Source: Acidobacteriota bacterium
GTDB lineage: Bacteria; Acidobacteriota; Terriglobia; UBA7540
Reading direction: 5' to 3'
DNA length: 49,384 nucleotides
Assembly (NCBI GenBank): GCA_902812415.1
Contig: CADDZJ010000019.1
Location: 1 to 49,384, forward strand
A program made the position numbers and the translations under genes. Each line of letters opens with the position of its first letter. Positions within the stretch are counted from its first letter, which is position 1. The notes under the pieces are model-generated. The model did no database searches and was not told where the DNA came from. It saw only the letters and a list, made by a program, of their open reading frames with translations. Shown here one piece after another: positions 18,981 through 39,127 of this stretch.

Positions 18981-19086
18981 CCTGTCCTGGATAGGCGACT
19001 CATAGCTCCCCGGTTGCTATCGGGTGAAAAAGCTATTGAAACTTAACGTCTTTATCGCACGTCTCCCAATCGAGGCGTCTGGTAAG

Positions 19087-19944
19087 ATGGGGCAAAAGTT
19101 GAATCGGAGCTTTTTCTTACTTTGGCTGATTGTTTTTCAGGCAACCACGTTGATTTGCCGCGCGGCATCAGCATCTTCGCCGCACGCCAAAGTGGACCTC
19201 GTCTCTGACGCCAATGCCATTCAGCCCGGGCGCATCCTGCGGGTAGGCCTGCACTTTACTCTGGAAAAAGGCTGGCATATTTACTGGATTAATCCCGGTG
19301 ACTCAGGCGAACCGCCTCGAATTCAATGGCAACTTCCGGCGAGTTTTCGCGCTGGTTCCATCCAATGGCCTGCTCCGCGCCGCATTCAGGATCATTCGCT
19401 GACCGATTACGGTTACGAGGAGGAGGCATTACTCATTGTTCCGATCTCGATTCCTTCACGCCTGCAATCCCATGAGATCAAGCTGGGCGCCACAGCCAAA
19501 TGGCTGGTGTGTCGGGATTCCTGTATTCCCGAGCAGGCAAGCCTTAATTTATCGCTTCCGGTGAGAGATGCTGGCGCCCAATCTCGCTCACCTTGGCATC
19601 GTCTCTTCGTCACAACTCAGGGACAGATTCCTGAACCTGCTCCAAAACGATGGAAACTGCGCGCTATTGCTGAGAAAGACCGATTCATTTTGGAAGCTCG
19701 CACCGGCAAGCCAGAGCGTCAGGCATCGTTCTTTCCCCTGGAACCAGATCAGATTGAAAATGCCGCGCCGCAAGAGGTCAGCAGTTATTCGGGTGGAGTG
19801 CGAATCAGTCTTCACAAGTCCGATCAGCTCATGCAACCCATTTCAACCCTTCGGGGAGTCATCGTCGTGAATTCGGGGCAAGCTTATGTGGTTGCCGCTC
19901 CGGTAATTCAATTGAATTCACCCAACAGGAGGAATCGTCCATGA
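19087..19944 (+). CDS. Stand-alone DsbD N-terminal (alpha) domain protein
   Basis: A periplasmic thiol-redox protein of 285 aa. The ATG at 19087 gives a good signal peptide (NRSFFLLWLIVFQATTLICRA); the upstream GTG adds 21 odd residues. The fold matches the DsbD-N/DsbC-corrector family: a GWHIYWINPGDSGEPPRIQW block, then WLVCRDSC with Cys142 and Cys146. Spacing is CxxxC, as in ScsB-like members, not the Cx5C of E. coli DsbD. No membrane-spanning or C-terminal thioredoxin part follows, so its electron donor must be encoded elsewhere. The stop overlaps the next start as ATGA, implying coupled synthesis with the redoxin. Confidence 0.85.
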   Translation: MGQKLNRSFFLLWLIVFQATTLICRAASASSPHAKVDLVSDANAIQPGRILRVGLHFTLEKGWHIYWINPGDSGEPPRIQWQLPASFRAGSIQWPAPRRIQDHSLTDYGYEEEALLIVPISIPSRLQSHEIKLGATAKWLVCRDSCIPEQASLNLSLPVRDAGAQSRSPWHRLFVTTQGQIPEPAPKRWKLRAIAEKDRFILEARTGKPERQASFFPLEPDQIENAAPQEVSSYSGGVRISLHKSDQLMQPISTLRGVIVVNSGQAYVVAAPVIQLNSPNRRNRP

Positions 19945-20549
19945 AGCGACTGAGGTTCTTGGCAGCGCTGGTTTTATCAGCTTTGTTTACAATCTGCGTT
20001 CAGGCGGTGCAGGTGGGAACTCCTGCCCCCGACTTCACAGCAACCGATACGCACGGGCAGGTCCATAGTTTATCGGAGTACAAAGGTAAGTTCGTGGTGC
20101 TTGAGTGGCACAACCGCGAATGCCCGTTCACGCGCAAGCACTATGAGAGCGGGCACATGCAGAAACTTCAGCGTGAATGGACCAGCAGGGGCGTCATCTG
20201 GTTTACGGTGATCTCCTCGGCTCCCGGCCAGCAGGGATATGTGACGGCGGATGAGGAAAACGCCTACGTCGAGAGAATGAAGGCTGATCCAACAGCCGTC
20301 TTGCTGGACCCTACCGGCAAACTCGGACACCTTTATGGAGCGAAGACCACGCCTCACATGTTTGTCATCAATCCGGAAGGAATTTTGATCTACGATGGCG
20401 CGATTGACAATAAGCCGACCACCGATCTGGATGATATTCCTGGAGCGAGGAATTACGTCTCAGAAGCGCTGGAAGAGGCGATGGCCGGGAAGAGCGTGAG
20501 CGTTCCCACTACGCGTCCCTACGGGTGCTCGGTAAAATATGCTCATTAA
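19941..20549 (+). CDS. Exported AhpC/TSA-type redoxin
   Basis: A 202-aa thioredoxin-fold peroxiredoxin-like protein. AGGAGG lies 8 nt before the ATG, which overlaps the previous stop. The signal peptide covers about residues 1-22. The mature part starts VQVGTPAPDFTATDTHG, the typical redoxin strand, and has HNRECPFTRKHYESG with Cys61 in place of the CxxC of thioredoxins. A second Cys196 near the C-terminus (YGCSVKYAH) could be the resolving residue. This CPFxRKHY type is common in exported proteins of environmental bacteria. Its partner is presumably the DsbD-N-like protein made from the same mRNA. Confidence 0.88.
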   Translation: MKRLRFLAALVLSALFTICVQAVQVGTPAPDFTATDTHGQVHSLSEYKGKFVVLEWHNRECPFTRKHYESGHMQKLQREWTSRGVIWFTVISSAPGQQGYVTADEENAYVERMKADPTAVLLDPTGKLGHLYGAKTTPHMFVINPEGILIYDGAIDNKPTTDLDDIPGARNYVSEALEEAMAGKSVSVPTTRPYGCSVKYAH

Positions 20550-20827
20550 GGCGCCGGAAGGCTTGTGCAGGGAGCGCGCGACTTAAGTATGATTCCCATC
20601 GCCTCATGGACCGCTCTTCCTTCGGGAGTCATGGGAAGATCATGGGATTTCCAGCATATGCTGCTCCTTGGGCGCAGGGGGCGTCTCAGTGTGTCCGAGT
20701 TGGTGAGGGAAGTGTGACAACCCGGAGCATTTCAACGAAAGTCTATCCTCAGTTTGCAGGACGAGGTTCTCTTTATTTTCTTGTACGCCGTGCTTTTCCA
20801 GTGATACGCTGAAAATTAGATTCCAAA

Positions 20828-22948
20828 ATGTCATTCTCTAAAGCTGGCCAGCAGTCAGAAAAAGTCCGCCCAAACCGACTGATTCACGAGAAGAGCCCTT
20901 ATCTTCTTCAGCATGCCTATAATCCCGTGGATTGGCATCCCTGGGGGCCGGAGGCCTTCAATCAAGCGCAGAAAGAGAATAAACCCATCTTTCTCTCCAT
21001 CGGTTATTCCACCTGCCATTGGTGTCACGTGATGGAGCGTGAATCTTTTGAGGACCCGGAAGTGGCCAGGCTGATGAACGAGACCTTCATCTCCATCAAG
21101 GTCGACCGCGAAGAGCGCCCGGACATCGATCAGGTCTATATGCGGATTTGCCAGATGCTCACGGGTAGCGGCGGATGGCCGCTTACGATCGTCATGATGC
21201 CCGATAAGAAGCCATTCTTCGCCGCGACTTATATTCCAAGGGGCGACCGTTTCGGACAGATGGGAATGCTTACGCTGATTCCCCGCATCCGCGAGCTTTG
21301 GCAGACAAGGCAGGATGACATTCTGAAATCTGCCGATGAGATCGTATCGGCCCTCGAAAAGGTTTCTTCCGCGTCCGTTGCGGGCAGCCTGAACTCCGGC
21401 ACGCTTGAAGCGGCTTTTGAGGAGTTAAGCTCGCGATTTGATTGGCGGCATGGTGGCTTCGGCAGGGCTCCCAAGTTCCCGACACCGCACAATCTGCTTT
21501 TTCTCTTGCGTTATTGGAAGCGAACGGACGATTTGCACGCTCTCGAGATGGTGGAGAAGACGCTTCGCGCCATGCGGCTGGGTGGAATTTATGATCACGT
21601 CGGTTTCGGTTTTCATCGCTACTCGACGGACGCCGAATGGCTTGTGCCGCACTTCGAGAAGATGCTATATGACCAGGCGTTGCTCTTGATGGCATATAGT
21701 GAAGCTTATCAGGCGACGCATCAGGAGGAGTATGCGCGGACGGCCCATGAAATTGTTGCCTATGTTGCGCGCGCGCTTCTGAGCCCTGAAGGGGCATTCT
21801 ATAGCGCGGAGGATGCCGATTCAGAAGGCGTGGAAGGCAAGTTTTACCTCTGGAAGGAAAGTGAAATCCGGACTGCGCTTGCCTGTGAGGAAGCCGATCT
21901 GGTCATTCACGCTTTTAACGTCAGCGGACCTGGCAATTTTTCCGAAGCTGGCGGCGACGGACCTTCCGGCGAGAATATTCTTCATCAAACCGAGCCTCCG
22001 CGGGCCATCGCCTTCCATCTGGGGATTTCGGAACAGGAGTTCGAAAAGCGCTGGGCCGCGGCGCGCGAAAAGCTCTTCGCTACTCGTGAGCACCGCGCGC
22101 ATCCTCATAAGGATGACAAAATCCTGACGGACTGGAATGGCCTTATGATCGCCGCTCTGGCCAAAGCCGCCAGGGCGCTGGGCGAGCCTCGCTATGCGGA
22201 ATTGGCGCAGCGAGCGGCGGACTTCATATTGCGGCGAATGCGGGCGACGGATGGGAGCTTGCTGCATCGGTATCGCGAAGGGCAAGCTGCAATCGAGGGC
22301 AATCTGGACGACTACGTTTTTCTCACCTGGGGATTGATTGAACTCTATGAGACGACTTTTGAAGTGAGCCATCTCCATGCCGCGCTGGAACTCAATTCCT
22401 ATACCCTGAAGGAATTTTGGGACGACCAGGAAGGAGGGTTTTATTTCACGGCCAGCCAGCAGGAGAGAGTCCTGGTGCGCTCGAAAGAAGTGTATGACGG
22501 CGCAGTTCCTTCAGGGAATTCAGTTGCCATGCTGAACTTGCTTCGCCTGGCTCGCATTACAGGCCATACGGAATGGGAGGAAAAAGCCTCCCAGCTTTCC
22601 GGAGTCTTTGCGCGCTCCATTCAGGAGTCGCCTTCAGCCTATACGCAGTGGATGACGGCACTGGATTTCGCGCTCGGGCCTTCGTTTGAGGTTGTCGTGA
22701 GCGGCGATCCAGCCGCTGAAGACACGCAGGCCATGCTCCAGGCCTTGCATCGTAGTTTCATTCCCAACGCGGTGATACTCTTGCGACCCACTTCGTCCGA
22801 CATTCCTGAAATCGCTCGGATCGCCGATTTTACAAAAACTCACACCAGCCTCAATGGCAAAGCCACCGCGTACGTCTGCCAGAATTTTCAGTGCCAGATT
22901 CCCACCGCAGACATTCAACAAATGCTCGAATTTCTTCGCGCCCGATAG
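20828..22948 (+). CDS. DUF255 thioredoxin-like protein (YyaL/SPATA20 family)
   Basis: A 706-aa cytoplasmic protein of the YyaL family. The N-terminal ~170 residues form the DUF255 thioredoxin-like domain: [20 protein letters not shown], then [10 protein letters not shown] with the CxxC pair Cys63/Cys66, and [10 protein letters not shown]. The rest is an (alpha/alpha)6 barrel like that of N-acylglucosamine 2-epimerases, with [15 protein letters not shown] and [13 protein letters not shown]. The biochemical function of the family is not established. There is no Shine-Dalgarno sequence; TAGATT lies 5 nt before the ATG, hinting at a leaderless or very short leader mRNA. The 278 bp upstream contain no convincing gene. 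Confidence 0.93.
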
Positions 22949-24225: not shown

Positions 24226-24756
24226 TTACACATCCACCGGCGTTCGCATTCCTTCGTTAAAGCGATTCGTCAGATTTGCTGTAGCGATGATCAGGACCAG
24301 TTCGGTGATTTGATCTTTGTTGAAATACTTTCCGAGAGTGTCAAGATCGGATTCCTGCGCCGACCCTGGCCAGCCCGTCAGCGTTTCCGCAAACTGAATA
24401 GCGGCTCTTTCCTGTTCGTTGAAGACATCGCGTCGAGCGCCGCCAGGCTCTTTGAGCGCCTGAATTTGCTCTTCGCTCACGCCGTGCCGCTTCGCCGAAG
24501 CGGTATGAGCGCGACTTCAATACTCACATCCGTTCATCAGCGAGGTTTTGAGATAGGCCAGTTCCTTGATTTTGGGTGAGAGCGCGCCCGGAGCCCAGAC
24601 TTGGGAATAAAATTCGAGGAAGGGAGCGAGCACATCCGGCTTGTGAGCCATCATCTTGAAGAAGTTGATCACGCGCCCGGTTTTTTGTTCGAGCTTTTCA
24701 TAAACGGGCCGTGCAGATTCGGCGACTTCGTGTTTCTCGACAGGTTCTATCTTCAT
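24226..24756 (-). CDS. AhpD-like / carboxymuconolactone decarboxylase family selenoprotein candidate
   Basis: A 176-aa AhpD-fold protein if the in-frame TGA at 24519-24517 is read as selenocysteine (Sec80). Upstream, residues 1-79 end LAYLKTSLMNGCEY. Downstream the same frame continues SRAHTASAKRHGVSEEQIQAL and runs 96 more residues to TAA. Family members have NGCxYCxxxH here, so the TGA replaces exactly the second, attacking Cys of CxxC, with Cys77 and His84 kept. A strong AAAGGAG precedes the ATG. A hairpin follows the TGA (separate entry). The gene is 19 nt after mnmA. The role is likely peroxide or thiol redox chemistry. The alternative is a nonsense mutation in a pseudogene; the frame and composition argue against that. 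Confidence 0.82.
24474..24511 (-). promoter_or_regulatory. SECIS-like hairpin after the AhpD UGA
   Basis: On the minus strand, 6 nt after the TGA begin nested stems: CGCTCA (24511-24506) pairs with TGAGCG (24479-24474), and CCGCTT (24503-24498) pairs with AAGCGG (24492-24487). The apical loop is CGGCG (24497-24493). The UGA-to-loop distance is 19 nt and a G is the second loop base. Both fit the published bacterial SECIS model (16-37 nt, G in the first two loop positions). Confidence 0.6.
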
Positions 24757-24775: not shown

Positions 24776-25924
24776 TCAATCGGCGCCTAAAATCCAGCCG
24801 CCGCCCACGACCTCCTCGCCGTCGTAAAAGACGGCGGCCTGGCCGGGGGTGATCGCTCTCTGCGGCTCAGCAAACTCAATGTTAGCCTCCGCGCCAGCGA
24901 GGGCCTCCACGGTGGCTGGGGCCGGCAGATGCTTATTGCGGATTCTCACGCAAGCGGAAATCCGCTCGCCCTCAGCGACGGGCCGAATCCAGTTCACGTT
25001 GCGCACGCGACAGCGTCGCTTGAACAAATCCTCATTGCGACCTACCACCACGCGATTTTTTGCGGCGTCAATCTCGATCACATAGAGCGGTGATCCGGCT
25101 GCCACGCCAAGGCCCTTACGTTGGCCAACCGTGAAGTGCTGGACTCCGTGATGCTCACCCAGGGTGCGTCCGTCGGTTGTGACCAATTCCCCAGGCCGAT
25201 CTTCCATTCTCGCGCCCTGCTCGGCAAGATAAGCCGCAATAAAGCCGCGATAAGAGCCGCCAGGCACAAAACAGATTTCCTGGCTTTCCGGTTTTTCCGC
25301 CACCGGCAATCTCTTCTCACGAGCGATGGCTCGCACCTGTTGCTTGGTGAGCTTCCCGAGCGGAAATATCGCTCGCGAAAGCTGTTCCTGCGTAAGGCCA
25401 AAGAGGAAATATGACTGATCCTTGCTCCGGTCGACCGCCACCAGAAGACGATAGCGTCCTGTCCGCTTGTCCTGATGAATGCGCGCATAGTGGCCGGTGG
25501 CGATACGCTCTGCCCCGATTTGCCGCGCCGTCTCCACAAACTGCTCAAACTTGATCTCGGTGTTACAACGGCTACACGGGATGGGAGTCTCACCCGCAAG
25601 ATATTGCTCGACGAAAGGCCGGACGACCTCTTCCTCAAAACGTCTTTCAAAGTTAACGACATAATACGGGATTCCCAGAAAACTTGCCACCCGGCGGGCG
25701 TCATAGACATCATCCAGCGAACAGCATCGCCCTGAAGCGCGACCCGGCTCGATCCCTTCCGGGAGACCCTGAAGGGCAGGGAGTCGCCGCTGGTTCCAAA
25801 GTTGCATGGTCAGGCCCACGATGCGCGGTTCGCCTCCAGCCTGCTCGGATCGAGACTTTTCGGCAAGAATTGCGGCGGCCGTTGAACTATCAACTCCGCC
25901 GCTCATGGCGACAGCAATGGTCAT
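24776..25924 (-). CDS. mnmA: tRNA-specific 2-thiouridylase MnmA
   Basis: It installs the 2-thio group on wobble uridine U34 of tRNA-Lys, -Glu and -Gln, using sulfur relayed from IscS. The 382 aa starts at the ATG at 25924 (the frame is open six codons further to a TTG). The ATP-pyrophosphatase P-loop SGGVDSS is at 8-14. Catalytic Cys120 is in IPCSRCNTEIKF and Cys218 in SQEICFVPGGSYRGF. GHYAR and the C-terminal beta-barrel (VFYDGEEVVGGGWILG) are present. It lies 72 bp downstream of iscS, an expected sulfur-relay pairing, and 19 bp upstream of the selenoprotein candidate. Confidence 0.97.
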   Translation of the reverse strand: MTIAVAMSGGVDSSTAAAILAEKSRSEQAGGEPRIVGLTMQLWNQRRLPALQGLPEGIEPGRASGRCCSLDDVYDARRVASFLGIPYYVVNFERRFEEEVVRPFVEQYLAGETPIPCSRCNTEIKFEQFVETARQIGAERIATGHYARIHQDKRTGRYRLLVAVDRSKDQSYFLFGLTQEQLSRAIFPLGKLTKQQVRAIAREKRLPVAEKPESQEICFVPGGSYRGFIAAYLAEQGARMEDRPGELVTTDGRTLGEHHGVQHFTVGQRKGLGVAAGSPLYVIEIDAAKNRVVVGRNEDLFKRRCRVRNVNWIRPVAEGERISACVRIRNKHLPAPATVEALAGAEANIEFAEPQRAITPGQAAVFYDGEEVVGGGWILGAD

Positions 25925-25996
25925 AGTAAAAGTGGTCAGCAATCAGCGTTCAGCAAGCTGGACTTGACCCTAACTTACAGGAAACCCGCTTGCAAA

Positions 25997-27193
25997 CTAA
26001 AGGCTGACGGCTTCTTTCTTGTAATGCGGTGAAAGCGAACGTAGGCGCTCAACCACTTGTGGAATGATCTCCACAGCCTGGTGGATGTCGTCTTCCGTAT
26101 TGTGTCGGCCCAGGCTGAAGCGGATGGTGGAGCGCGCCTGCTCTTTGCTCATCCCGATGGCCGAGAGCACGTGGGAGGGTTCGAGCGAGCCGGAAGAGCA
26201 CGCCGCGCCGGTCGAGCAGGCGAGACCCAGCAAGTCAGCCGCGATCACAAATCCCTCCCCTTCCACGTGATCAAATCGAATGCTACTGGTGTTCGGCAGG
26301 CGCGGGCTCCGGCTGCAATGGACAGTCGCGTCAGAAACTTGTTGCAGAATCCCTTCTTCCAATCGACCTCGCAAGGCCGCGATGCGGTGCGACTCATCGC
26401 ATAAGCCCTGAATGGCAAGTTCGGCAGCCCTGCCGAATCCGACGATGCCCGAAACATTTTCCGTTCCGGGCCGGCGGTCGCGTTCATGATGACCGCCGTA
26501 CATCAATGGTCGAAGAGAGGTTCCCTTGCGAATGTAAAGCGCGCCCACGCCCTTGGGGCCGTACAGCTTGTGCGCTGAAAGAGAGAGCAGGTGCACGCCC
26601 AGCTTTTTCACGTCAATCGGAATCTTGCCCGCTGACTGCACCGCATCCGTGTGGAAGACGATGCCGTGTTCGCGCGCGATGCGGCTGATCTCTTCCACAG
26701 GCTGAATGGAACCCAGTTCGTTATTCGAGTGCATTACGGAGATGAGCGCCGTTTCGGGCGTGATCGCGCGCTCAATGTCACCGGGATCGACAACGCCGCT
26801 CGATCCCACCGGAACATAGGTGACGCGCACCCCGCGGGCCTCCAACGCCTGAGCGGCATAAAGCACCGCGTGATGTTCGATGGTGGTGGTAATGAGATGT
26901 GCGGGCCGATCCGCGCCATGCGAATCCGCTGCTGCTGCTGCAACCACGCCGAAGAGAGCTGTGTTATCGCTCTCCGTTCCGCCGCTGGTAAAGACAATCT
27001 CGCTTGCCTGCGCGTTGATCAAACGCGCCACGCTTTCCCGAGCTTCTTCCAAGGCCGCCTTGGCCCGCTGGCCGTACCAGTGAATCGAGGAGGCATTCCC
27101 GAAGCCTTCATCGATAAGATAGGGCTTCATCGCCTCAAATACTTCCGGCGCAAGAGGCGTAGTGGCATTGTTATCCAGATAGATTCGGCGCAT
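25997..27193 (-). CDS. iscS: Cysteine desulfurase (IscS/NifS type)
   Basis: A PLP-dependent cysteine desulfurase of 398 aa that makes a persulfide for Fe-S clusters, thio-tRNA and possibly selenium delivery. The N-terminus is YLDNNATTPL. His108 is in ITTTIEHHAVL, the PLP site is TDAVQSAGK, and Schiff-base Lys209 is in SAHKLYGPKGVG. The catalytic Cys332 is in STGAACSSGSLEPSHVL, with the long flexible loop of group I (IscS-like) enzymes. No iscU, iscA or IscR is adjacent; the downstream genes are mnmA and the AhpD-like selenoprotein. The dedicated role is therefore likely tRNA thiolation, with possible general use. Confidence 0.96.
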   Translation of the reverse strand: MRRIYLDNNATTPLAPEVFEAMKPYLIDEGFGNASSIHWYGQRAKAALEEARESVARLINAQASEIVFTSGGTESDNTALFGVVAAAAADSHGADRPAHLITTTIEHHAVLYAAQALEARGVRVTYVPVGSSGVVDPGDIERAITPETALISVMHSNNELGSIQPVEEISRIAREHGIVFHTDAVQSAGKIPIDVKKLGVHLLSLSAHKLYGPKGVGALYIRKGTSLRPLMYGGHHERDRRPGTENVSGIVGFGRAAELAIQGLCDESHRIAALRGRLEEGILQQVSDATVHCSRSPRLPNTSSIRFDHVEGEGFVIAADLLGLACSTGAACSSGSLEPSHVLSAIGMSKEQARSTIRFSLGRHNTEDDIHQAVEIIPQVVERLRSLSPHYKKEAVSL

Positions 27194-38104: not shown

Positions 38105-39127
38105 ATGAAGGATCTTGGCGTAGCGATCATCGGCACAGGCTGGGTTGCGGGAGAGCATATTCGGGCGTATCGGGCGAATCCTCGGACGGAGATTCGCGCC
38201 ATCGTGAGCCGCGACCGCGACCGGGCGCACGCGAAGGCGGAAGAATTCGGGCTTCAGAATTGCCGCGGCTATGACCATCTTGAAGAGATGCTGGATGCGC
38301 CCGGCATCAATATTGTTTCAATTTGCACGCCGCATCATCTGCATGTGGAGCAGGGAGTGGCCTGCGCCAAAGCCGGAAAGCACCTGTTGCTTGAAAAACC
38401 GGTGGCATTGGACCTCGAAGGGCTGCGCCAGCTTCAGGCCGCCGTGCGCGAAGCGGGGGTGAAAACCCTGGTGAGCTTCGTCTTGCGCTGGAATCCTTTG
38501 TTTCAGACCCTTCGCGCTTTGCTCGATGACGGCGTAGTGGGGTCGCTCTTTTATGGCGAGGTGGATTACTTCCACCAGGTAGGGCCGTGGTATGCCCAGT
38601 ATGCGTGGAACATCCAGAAGGAGATTGGGCGCAGTAGTTTGCTAACCGGCGGTTGCCATGCGGTGGACGGCTTGCGATGGTTCATGAAGAAGCGAGCCGT
38701 TGAGGTATTCGCCTATGCCAACACCAGTCCCCGAAATCCGCTCCATTATGAGTATGAGCCTAACAGCGTGACACTGGTGAAGTTTGAGGATGGCGCGATA
38801 GGCAAAGTCGCTTCTTCCATCGAATGCGTCATGCCTTACGTCTTCAATATTGAGCTGCTGGGCGATATGGGGACTATCCGCAATAATCAGGTCTTCTCAA
38901 AGCGCTGGGTAGGGCAGCGTGGCTGGGCGACTATTCCTACGGTCCTTCCTGACAGCGGAGACGTGGCGCACCATCCCTTCCGCGAAGAAGTGGATCACTT
39001 TGTGGATTGCATTTTGAACGATCGAGAGTCCCACGCCAATCTGGAAGACGCCGTCCAGACGCATGAGATCTGCTTTGCATCCGAAATCTCGGCGCATGAA
39101 AAGCGTCCCGTCGCGTTACCGCTTTGA
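38105..39127 (+). CDS. Cytosolic Gfo/Idh/MocA oxidoreductase
   Basis: A 340-aa NAD(P)-dependent oxidoreductase with no signal. GGAGG precedes the ATG by 7 nt. The Rossmann loop is AIIGTGWVAGEH. The EKP motif (LLLEKPVALD) and the GGCHAVDGLRWF segment with the conserved Asp/His pair of the family are clear. The C-terminal domain is full length. Related proteins oxidise inositols, sugars or their derivatives. It is divergent from the Tat-exported TIM-barrel gene, so all three could share a sugar pathway. Confidence 0.92.
   Translation: MKDLGVAIIGTGWVAGEHIRAYRANPRTEIRAIVSRDRDRAHAKAEEFGLQNCRGYDHLEEMLDAPGINIVSICTPHHLHVEQGVACAKAGKHLLLEKPVALDLEGLRQLQAAVREAGVKTLVSFVLRWNPLFQTLRALLDDGVVGSLFYGEVDYFHQVGPWYAQYAWNIQKEIGRSSLLTGGCHAVDGLRWFMKKRAVEVFAYANTSPRNPLHYEYEPNSVTLVKFEDGAIGKVASSIECVMPYVFNIELLGDMGTIRNNQVFSKRWVGQRGWATIPTVLPDSGDVAHHPFREEVDHFVDCILNDRESHANLEDAVQTHEICFASEISAHEKRPVALPL

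Follow-up and report, generated by a model that had tools for sequence, protein, structure and literature searches.

An AhpD-like gene from an uncultured Terriglobia bacterium very probably encodes a selenoprotein with selenocysteine at the second redox position

An AhpD-like gene in the 49,384-nucleotide stretch of DNA analysed here (the window) carries an in-frame UGA at codon 80 that is, with high confidence, read as selenocysteine (Sec) rather than as a stop. We favour this reading because the corresponding column in homologues holds either TGA or a Cys codon, because a covarying hairpin follows the UGA, because the same genome has the Sec machinery and because selection acts on both sides of the codon.

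Re-reading of the minus-strand frame 24756-24226 confirmed that it runs from an ATG through a single TGA (24519-24517) to a TAA and is otherwise open, as a first, sequence-only reading had claimed. The ATG is preceded by AAAAGGAGA, a good ribosome-binding site. The residues around codon 80 are ...LMNGCEY-U-SRAHTASAKRHGVSEEQ..., and in the AhpD motif CxxCxxxH the TGA falls exactly on the second Cys, taken to be the attacking thiol of AhpD. This placement (Cys77, Sec80, His84) had also been proposed from the sequence, and alignment with Pseudomonas aeruginosa PA0269 gives the same spacing. Table 1 lists the features discussed.

Table 1. Positions of the AhpD-like gene, its elements, its neighbours and further AhpD-family genes of the same genome
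Feature	Location	Strand	Remarks
AhpD-like (CMD family, peroxidase-related) gene, very probable selenoprotein	24226..24756	minus	176 aa when UGA80 is read through
Sec80 codon (predicted), in-frame TGA	24517..24519	minus	TGA or TGC alone in the column, 30 sequences
Active-site segment coding Glu65, Cys77, Tyr79, Sec80, His84	24505..24564	minus	From alignment with PA0269 and of homologues; residue roles from PMC3141380
Putative bacterial SECIS apical hairpin	24487..24503	minus	7-bp stem CCGCTTC/GAAGCGG, loop GGC, UGA-to-loop 20 nt
Outer stem enclosing the hairpin, window copy	24477..24514	minus	Fold of 24470-24519; not kept in every relative
mnmA	24776-25942	minus	Upstream of the AhpD-like gene
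nifS	25997-27193	minus	Upstream of the AhpD-like gene
TrkA-type potassium channel protein gene			Downstream of the AhpD-like gene
L062, AhpD-family	G000:C2:2627-3106		CDYU
L065, AhpD-family	G000:C20:2606-3016		CPFU
L064, AhpD-family	G000:C199:1755-2246		CPFU; without His four residues past Sec

Homologues were sought in 200 relatives, and the full sequences of 29 homologues, the most distant about 30% identical, were examined. At the column of the UGA we find TGA in 18/29 and Cys (TGC) in 11/29, with no other codon; together with the window gene, Cys or Sec occupies this position in 30/30 sequences, a result that leaves the selenoprotein reading standing. Tyr79 and Asn75 are invariant in the alignment, and Glu65, Cys77 and His84 nearly so. 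The closest relatives of the gene come from uncultured Terriglobia (Acidobacteriota). Among the close orthologues (71–73% identity), those with TGA come from genera g8 and g16 (a single genome of each) and those with TGC from five genomes of genus g3, and the search of the 200 relatives found no close orthologue in three congeners of the window genome. In a plasmid search, all relatives recovered fell below 60% identity, with a maximum of about 33%.

Folding of the region 3' of the UGA gave a 7-bp apical stem with a GGC loop, which in the window copy sits inside an outer stem, so that the nested hairpin described earlier is indeed present. The earlier description had put the loop 19 nt after the UGA with G in its second position; the hairpin is the same one, but the fold places the GGC loop at 20 nt, the CGGCG loop of that description including the closing C-G pair. 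Among the UGA genes the stem is intact in 19/19 (18 homologues and the window gene), with 133/133 pairs standard, and in all of them the loop, GGC or GUC [G(G/U)C], lies in the same place 20 nt past the UGA. Five of the seven stem pairs have both-sided (compensatory) changes, amounting to 23 cells against a shuffled mean of 7.8, and the covariation score is 0.516 against 0.270 for shuffled alignments, with 0/500 shuffles as high. When the partners are slid by 1–3 columns, pairing drops to 35–56%. The hairpin lies within coding sequence, and comparison with the Cys genes is important for that reason: among them the full stem occurs in 0/11, and 38/77 cells are paired. The case for a putative SECIS element is carried by this comparative test rather than by the single-sequence fold of the window region, which is unremarkable alone (z −1.17).

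The window holds 1739 TGA triplets when both strands are counted, and just one, TGA 24519-24517, is followed by a 7-bp stem at the SECIS position. We also screened window TGAs for readthrough into at least 60 codons, at least 30 codons before the TGA and a SECIS-like hairpin. Only two passed, this one and one at 39015 (+); as a second selenoprotein the latter was rejected, its readthrough frame holding nothing recognisable by eye, and it was taken as a chance hit.

The same genome encodes a tRNA-Sec with anticodon UCA (72.6 bits), SelB (372.5 bits; cut-off 242), SelA (586.5 bits; cut-off 268) and SelD (376.9 bits; cut-off 125). Its SelD (L045, G000:C37:3685-4617) has an in-frame UGA of its own (GUAAK) and is probably itself a selenoprotein. 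SelB is over the cut-off in 17 of the 19 genomes that carry the UGA form; the two others, G018 (83% complete) and G033 (57% complete), probably lack it through incompleteness. Over the whole set of relatives SelB is patchy, being over the cut-off in 145/200 genomes and in none of the searched genomes of genus g38 (family f10).

It is very improbable that UGA80 is a true stop, leaving a pseudogene or a 79-residue truncated product with a decaying downstream part. Under genetic code table 11 UGA ordinarily terminates translation, and no full-length open reading frame is listed at this place, but pN/pS of the window gene against its orthologues, a rough measure here with synonymous sites near saturation, is 0.17–0.24 before the UGA and 0.18–0.40 after it. 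Purifying selection thus appears alike on either side, with no sign of downstream decay. Further in-frame stops, looked for as a mark of decay, were seen in none of the close relatives among the 29 homologues read, and several families of the class have retained this UGA together with its covarying hairpin. Still less probable is that a sequencing or assembly error made TGA from TGC in this contig. Such an origin would fit the TGC of the close Cys orthologues in genus g3, and the window does come from a draft genome of 261 contigs; against it, the same TGA recurs in independent assemblies, and the window copy has an intact SECIS stem that is missing from every Cys orthologue.

At the protein level, the window product matches Pfam CMD (PF02627) with 67.4 bits (gathering cut-off 23), the AhpD core domain with 46.9 bits (cut-off 27.8) and the peroxidase-related family TIGR01926 with 81.8 bits. 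The last lies exactly at its cut-off of 81.8, with orthologues over (83.6) and under (74.6) it, and we regard the protein as a borderline member. All three matches extend across the TGA on both sides. The window protein gave no match to AhpD proper (TIGR00777, cut-off 191.95), for which some relatives reach 20–24 bits. The second best family model is NF053654, a YciW-related (seleno)protein family whose name includes Sec members; the match covers the full profile, but its 73.9 bits fall short of the equivalog cut-off (310 bits), and the protein is not a member. An AlphaFold2 model has a mean pLDDT of 94.9, and its best Foldseek matches in the PDB are the Bmp8 debrominase (6OHJ, top), mlr4105 (3C1L) and Deinococcus radiodurans AhpD (6K40), with PA0269 further down.

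The catalytic Glu, Cys, Tyr or His, Cys and His of the AhpD-like structural family are all found in the two-helix motif of the window protein, with E65, C77, Y79, U80 and H84 aligning with PA0269 Glu36, Cys48, Tyr50, Cys51 and His55. In PA0269 these five residues form the proton relay of an enzyme that reduces H2O2 slowly, and their counterparts in Mycobacterium tuberculosis AhpD are Glu118, Cys130, His132, Cys133 and His137 (PMC3141380). PA0269 (2O4D, 2IJC) thus has the same fold and active-site spacing as the window protein, differing in its Cys for Sec, a shorter N-terminus and an identity of about 33%. The spacing of Glu118, Cys130, Cys133 and His137 is likewise common to M. tuberculosis AhpD (1GU9, 1KNC) and the window protein, whereas the active site of the former lies near its C-terminus, the identity in the Foldseek alignment is 11% and the window protein misses the cut-off for AhpD proper. 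Because the spacing is that of PA0269 and of M. tuberculosis AhpD, we assign Sec to the second-Cys position.

We suggest the following course of events. SelB carrying Sec-tRNA(UCA) would bind the hairpin just 3' of UGA80 while that codon is being read, leading to insertion of Sec. Once folded, the all-helical protein would have Cys77 and Sec80 as a CxxU redox pair beside Glu65, Tyr79 and His84, in the proton-relay arrangement of AhpD. The substrate reduced by Sec80, which occupies the position of AhpD Cys133, would most likely be a hydroperoxide or some comparable oxidised compound, and having a selenol at this site should speed the attack on hydroperoxides. Sec80 would then join Cys77 in a selenylsulfide, and a cellular thiol or lipoyl donor would recycle Sec80. 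For the window enzyme, we infer Sec insertion, peroxidase activity, substrate and electron donor alike.

Hydroperoxide reduction is, from homology, the somewhat more probable main reaction. Loss of its AhpD-like protein makes a D. radiodurans strain more H2O2-sensitive (PMC8945050), and an AhpD-like protein of P. aeruginosa protects against HOCl (PMC7950407). A smaller yet substantial probability belongs to an enzyme in which Sec is real but which acts mainly as a thiol/selenol reductase (a peroxiredoxin-reducing adaptor, as AhpD is for AhpC) or as a Bmp8-like reductive dehalogenase. AhpD has been described as an electron donor for AhpC/AhpE and OsmC (PMC8945050), and about 3.7 kb from the window's AhpD-like gene the opposite strand carries an AhpC/TSA-type redoxin gene. 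Bmp8 (6OHI, 6OHJ), the top Foldseek match and structurally an equally good one, shares the CMD/AhpD-like fold, but it is deposited as a debrominase, has no Sec and is 25% identical to the window protein. Peroxidase activity is favoured by its assignment to just this five-residue proton relay, by the H2O2 reduction, if slow, of PA0269, whose relay residues are the same, and by the lack in the fetched relatives of conserved neighbours pointing to another pathway.

The operon context, to which the sequence-only reading had drawn attention, proved uninformative. In no fetched relative (most loci with about 1.5 kb of flank) do mnmA, nifS or the TrkA-type channel gene adjoin the AhpD-like gene, and a link to 2-thiouridine or selenouridine through mnmA and nifS was rejected on the same ground. 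Because these genes are not conserved beside it, the neighbourhood gives no functional clue. The Cys orthologues adjoin phosphate-transport and radical-SAM genes, as judged from translations. Close to the AhpD-like gene but on the opposite strand (19024-22948, plus), DsbD-N, AhpC/TSA-type redoxin and YyaL-type thioredoxin-domain genes stand in a row, forming a loose redox neighbourhood.

AhpD-like selenoproteins are known from metagenomes, as the sequence-only reading had stated: 27 AhpD-like CxxU sequences were reported from the Sargasso Sea in 2005 (PMC1088965), the GOS set holds 299 and 70 AhpD-like 1 and 2 selenoproteins (PMC2398784), and a 2026 catalogue lists an 'AhpD-like protein, TIGR01926, CxxU' in its Table 1 (PMC13188914). 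The window gene has in common with the published CxxU proteins the family, Sec at the second redox position and a bacterial SECIS just 3' of the UGA; its host is an uncultured member of the Terriglobia (Acidobacteriota) and not a marine metagenome. Its clade is distinct (the next Sec clade is about 45% identical), the likeness to the published sequences being one of description only. What is new is the particular clade and its host, the kind of selenoprotein being known already, and knowledge of selenoproteins as such is unchanged. For annotation, genes of this sort matter in that automatic pipelines would tend to cut them at the UGA or call them pseudogenes.

Three more AhpD-family genes of the same genome each have a single in-frame TGA at the second CxxC position (Table 1), bringing the UGA-containing AhpD-family genes to four with the window gene. 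That the clade is a distinct Acidobacteriota selenoperoxidase subfamily with its own substrate, in genomes with several parallel AhpD-like selenoproteins (an AhpD-centred selenoproteome), is a speculative and rather unlikely proposal.

In the tree, the Cys genus g3 forms one clade within a group whose other members (the window gene, G010 and G018) carry Sec. The simplest reading would be that TGA gave way to TGC and the hairpin was lost, a direction that depends on a midpoint root. G124 represents a separate switch to Cys, in a genome without SelB over the cut-off. The Sec and Cys forms of the clade make natural pairs, about 72% identical, one with the SECIS and one without, and lend themselves to a clean comparison of what an AhpD-type enzyme gains from selenium. 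Loci L010-L013, L015 and L025 show apparent switches from Sec to Cys (TGC) in which the SECIS stem is gone, and SelB is mostly still present in the g3 genomes.
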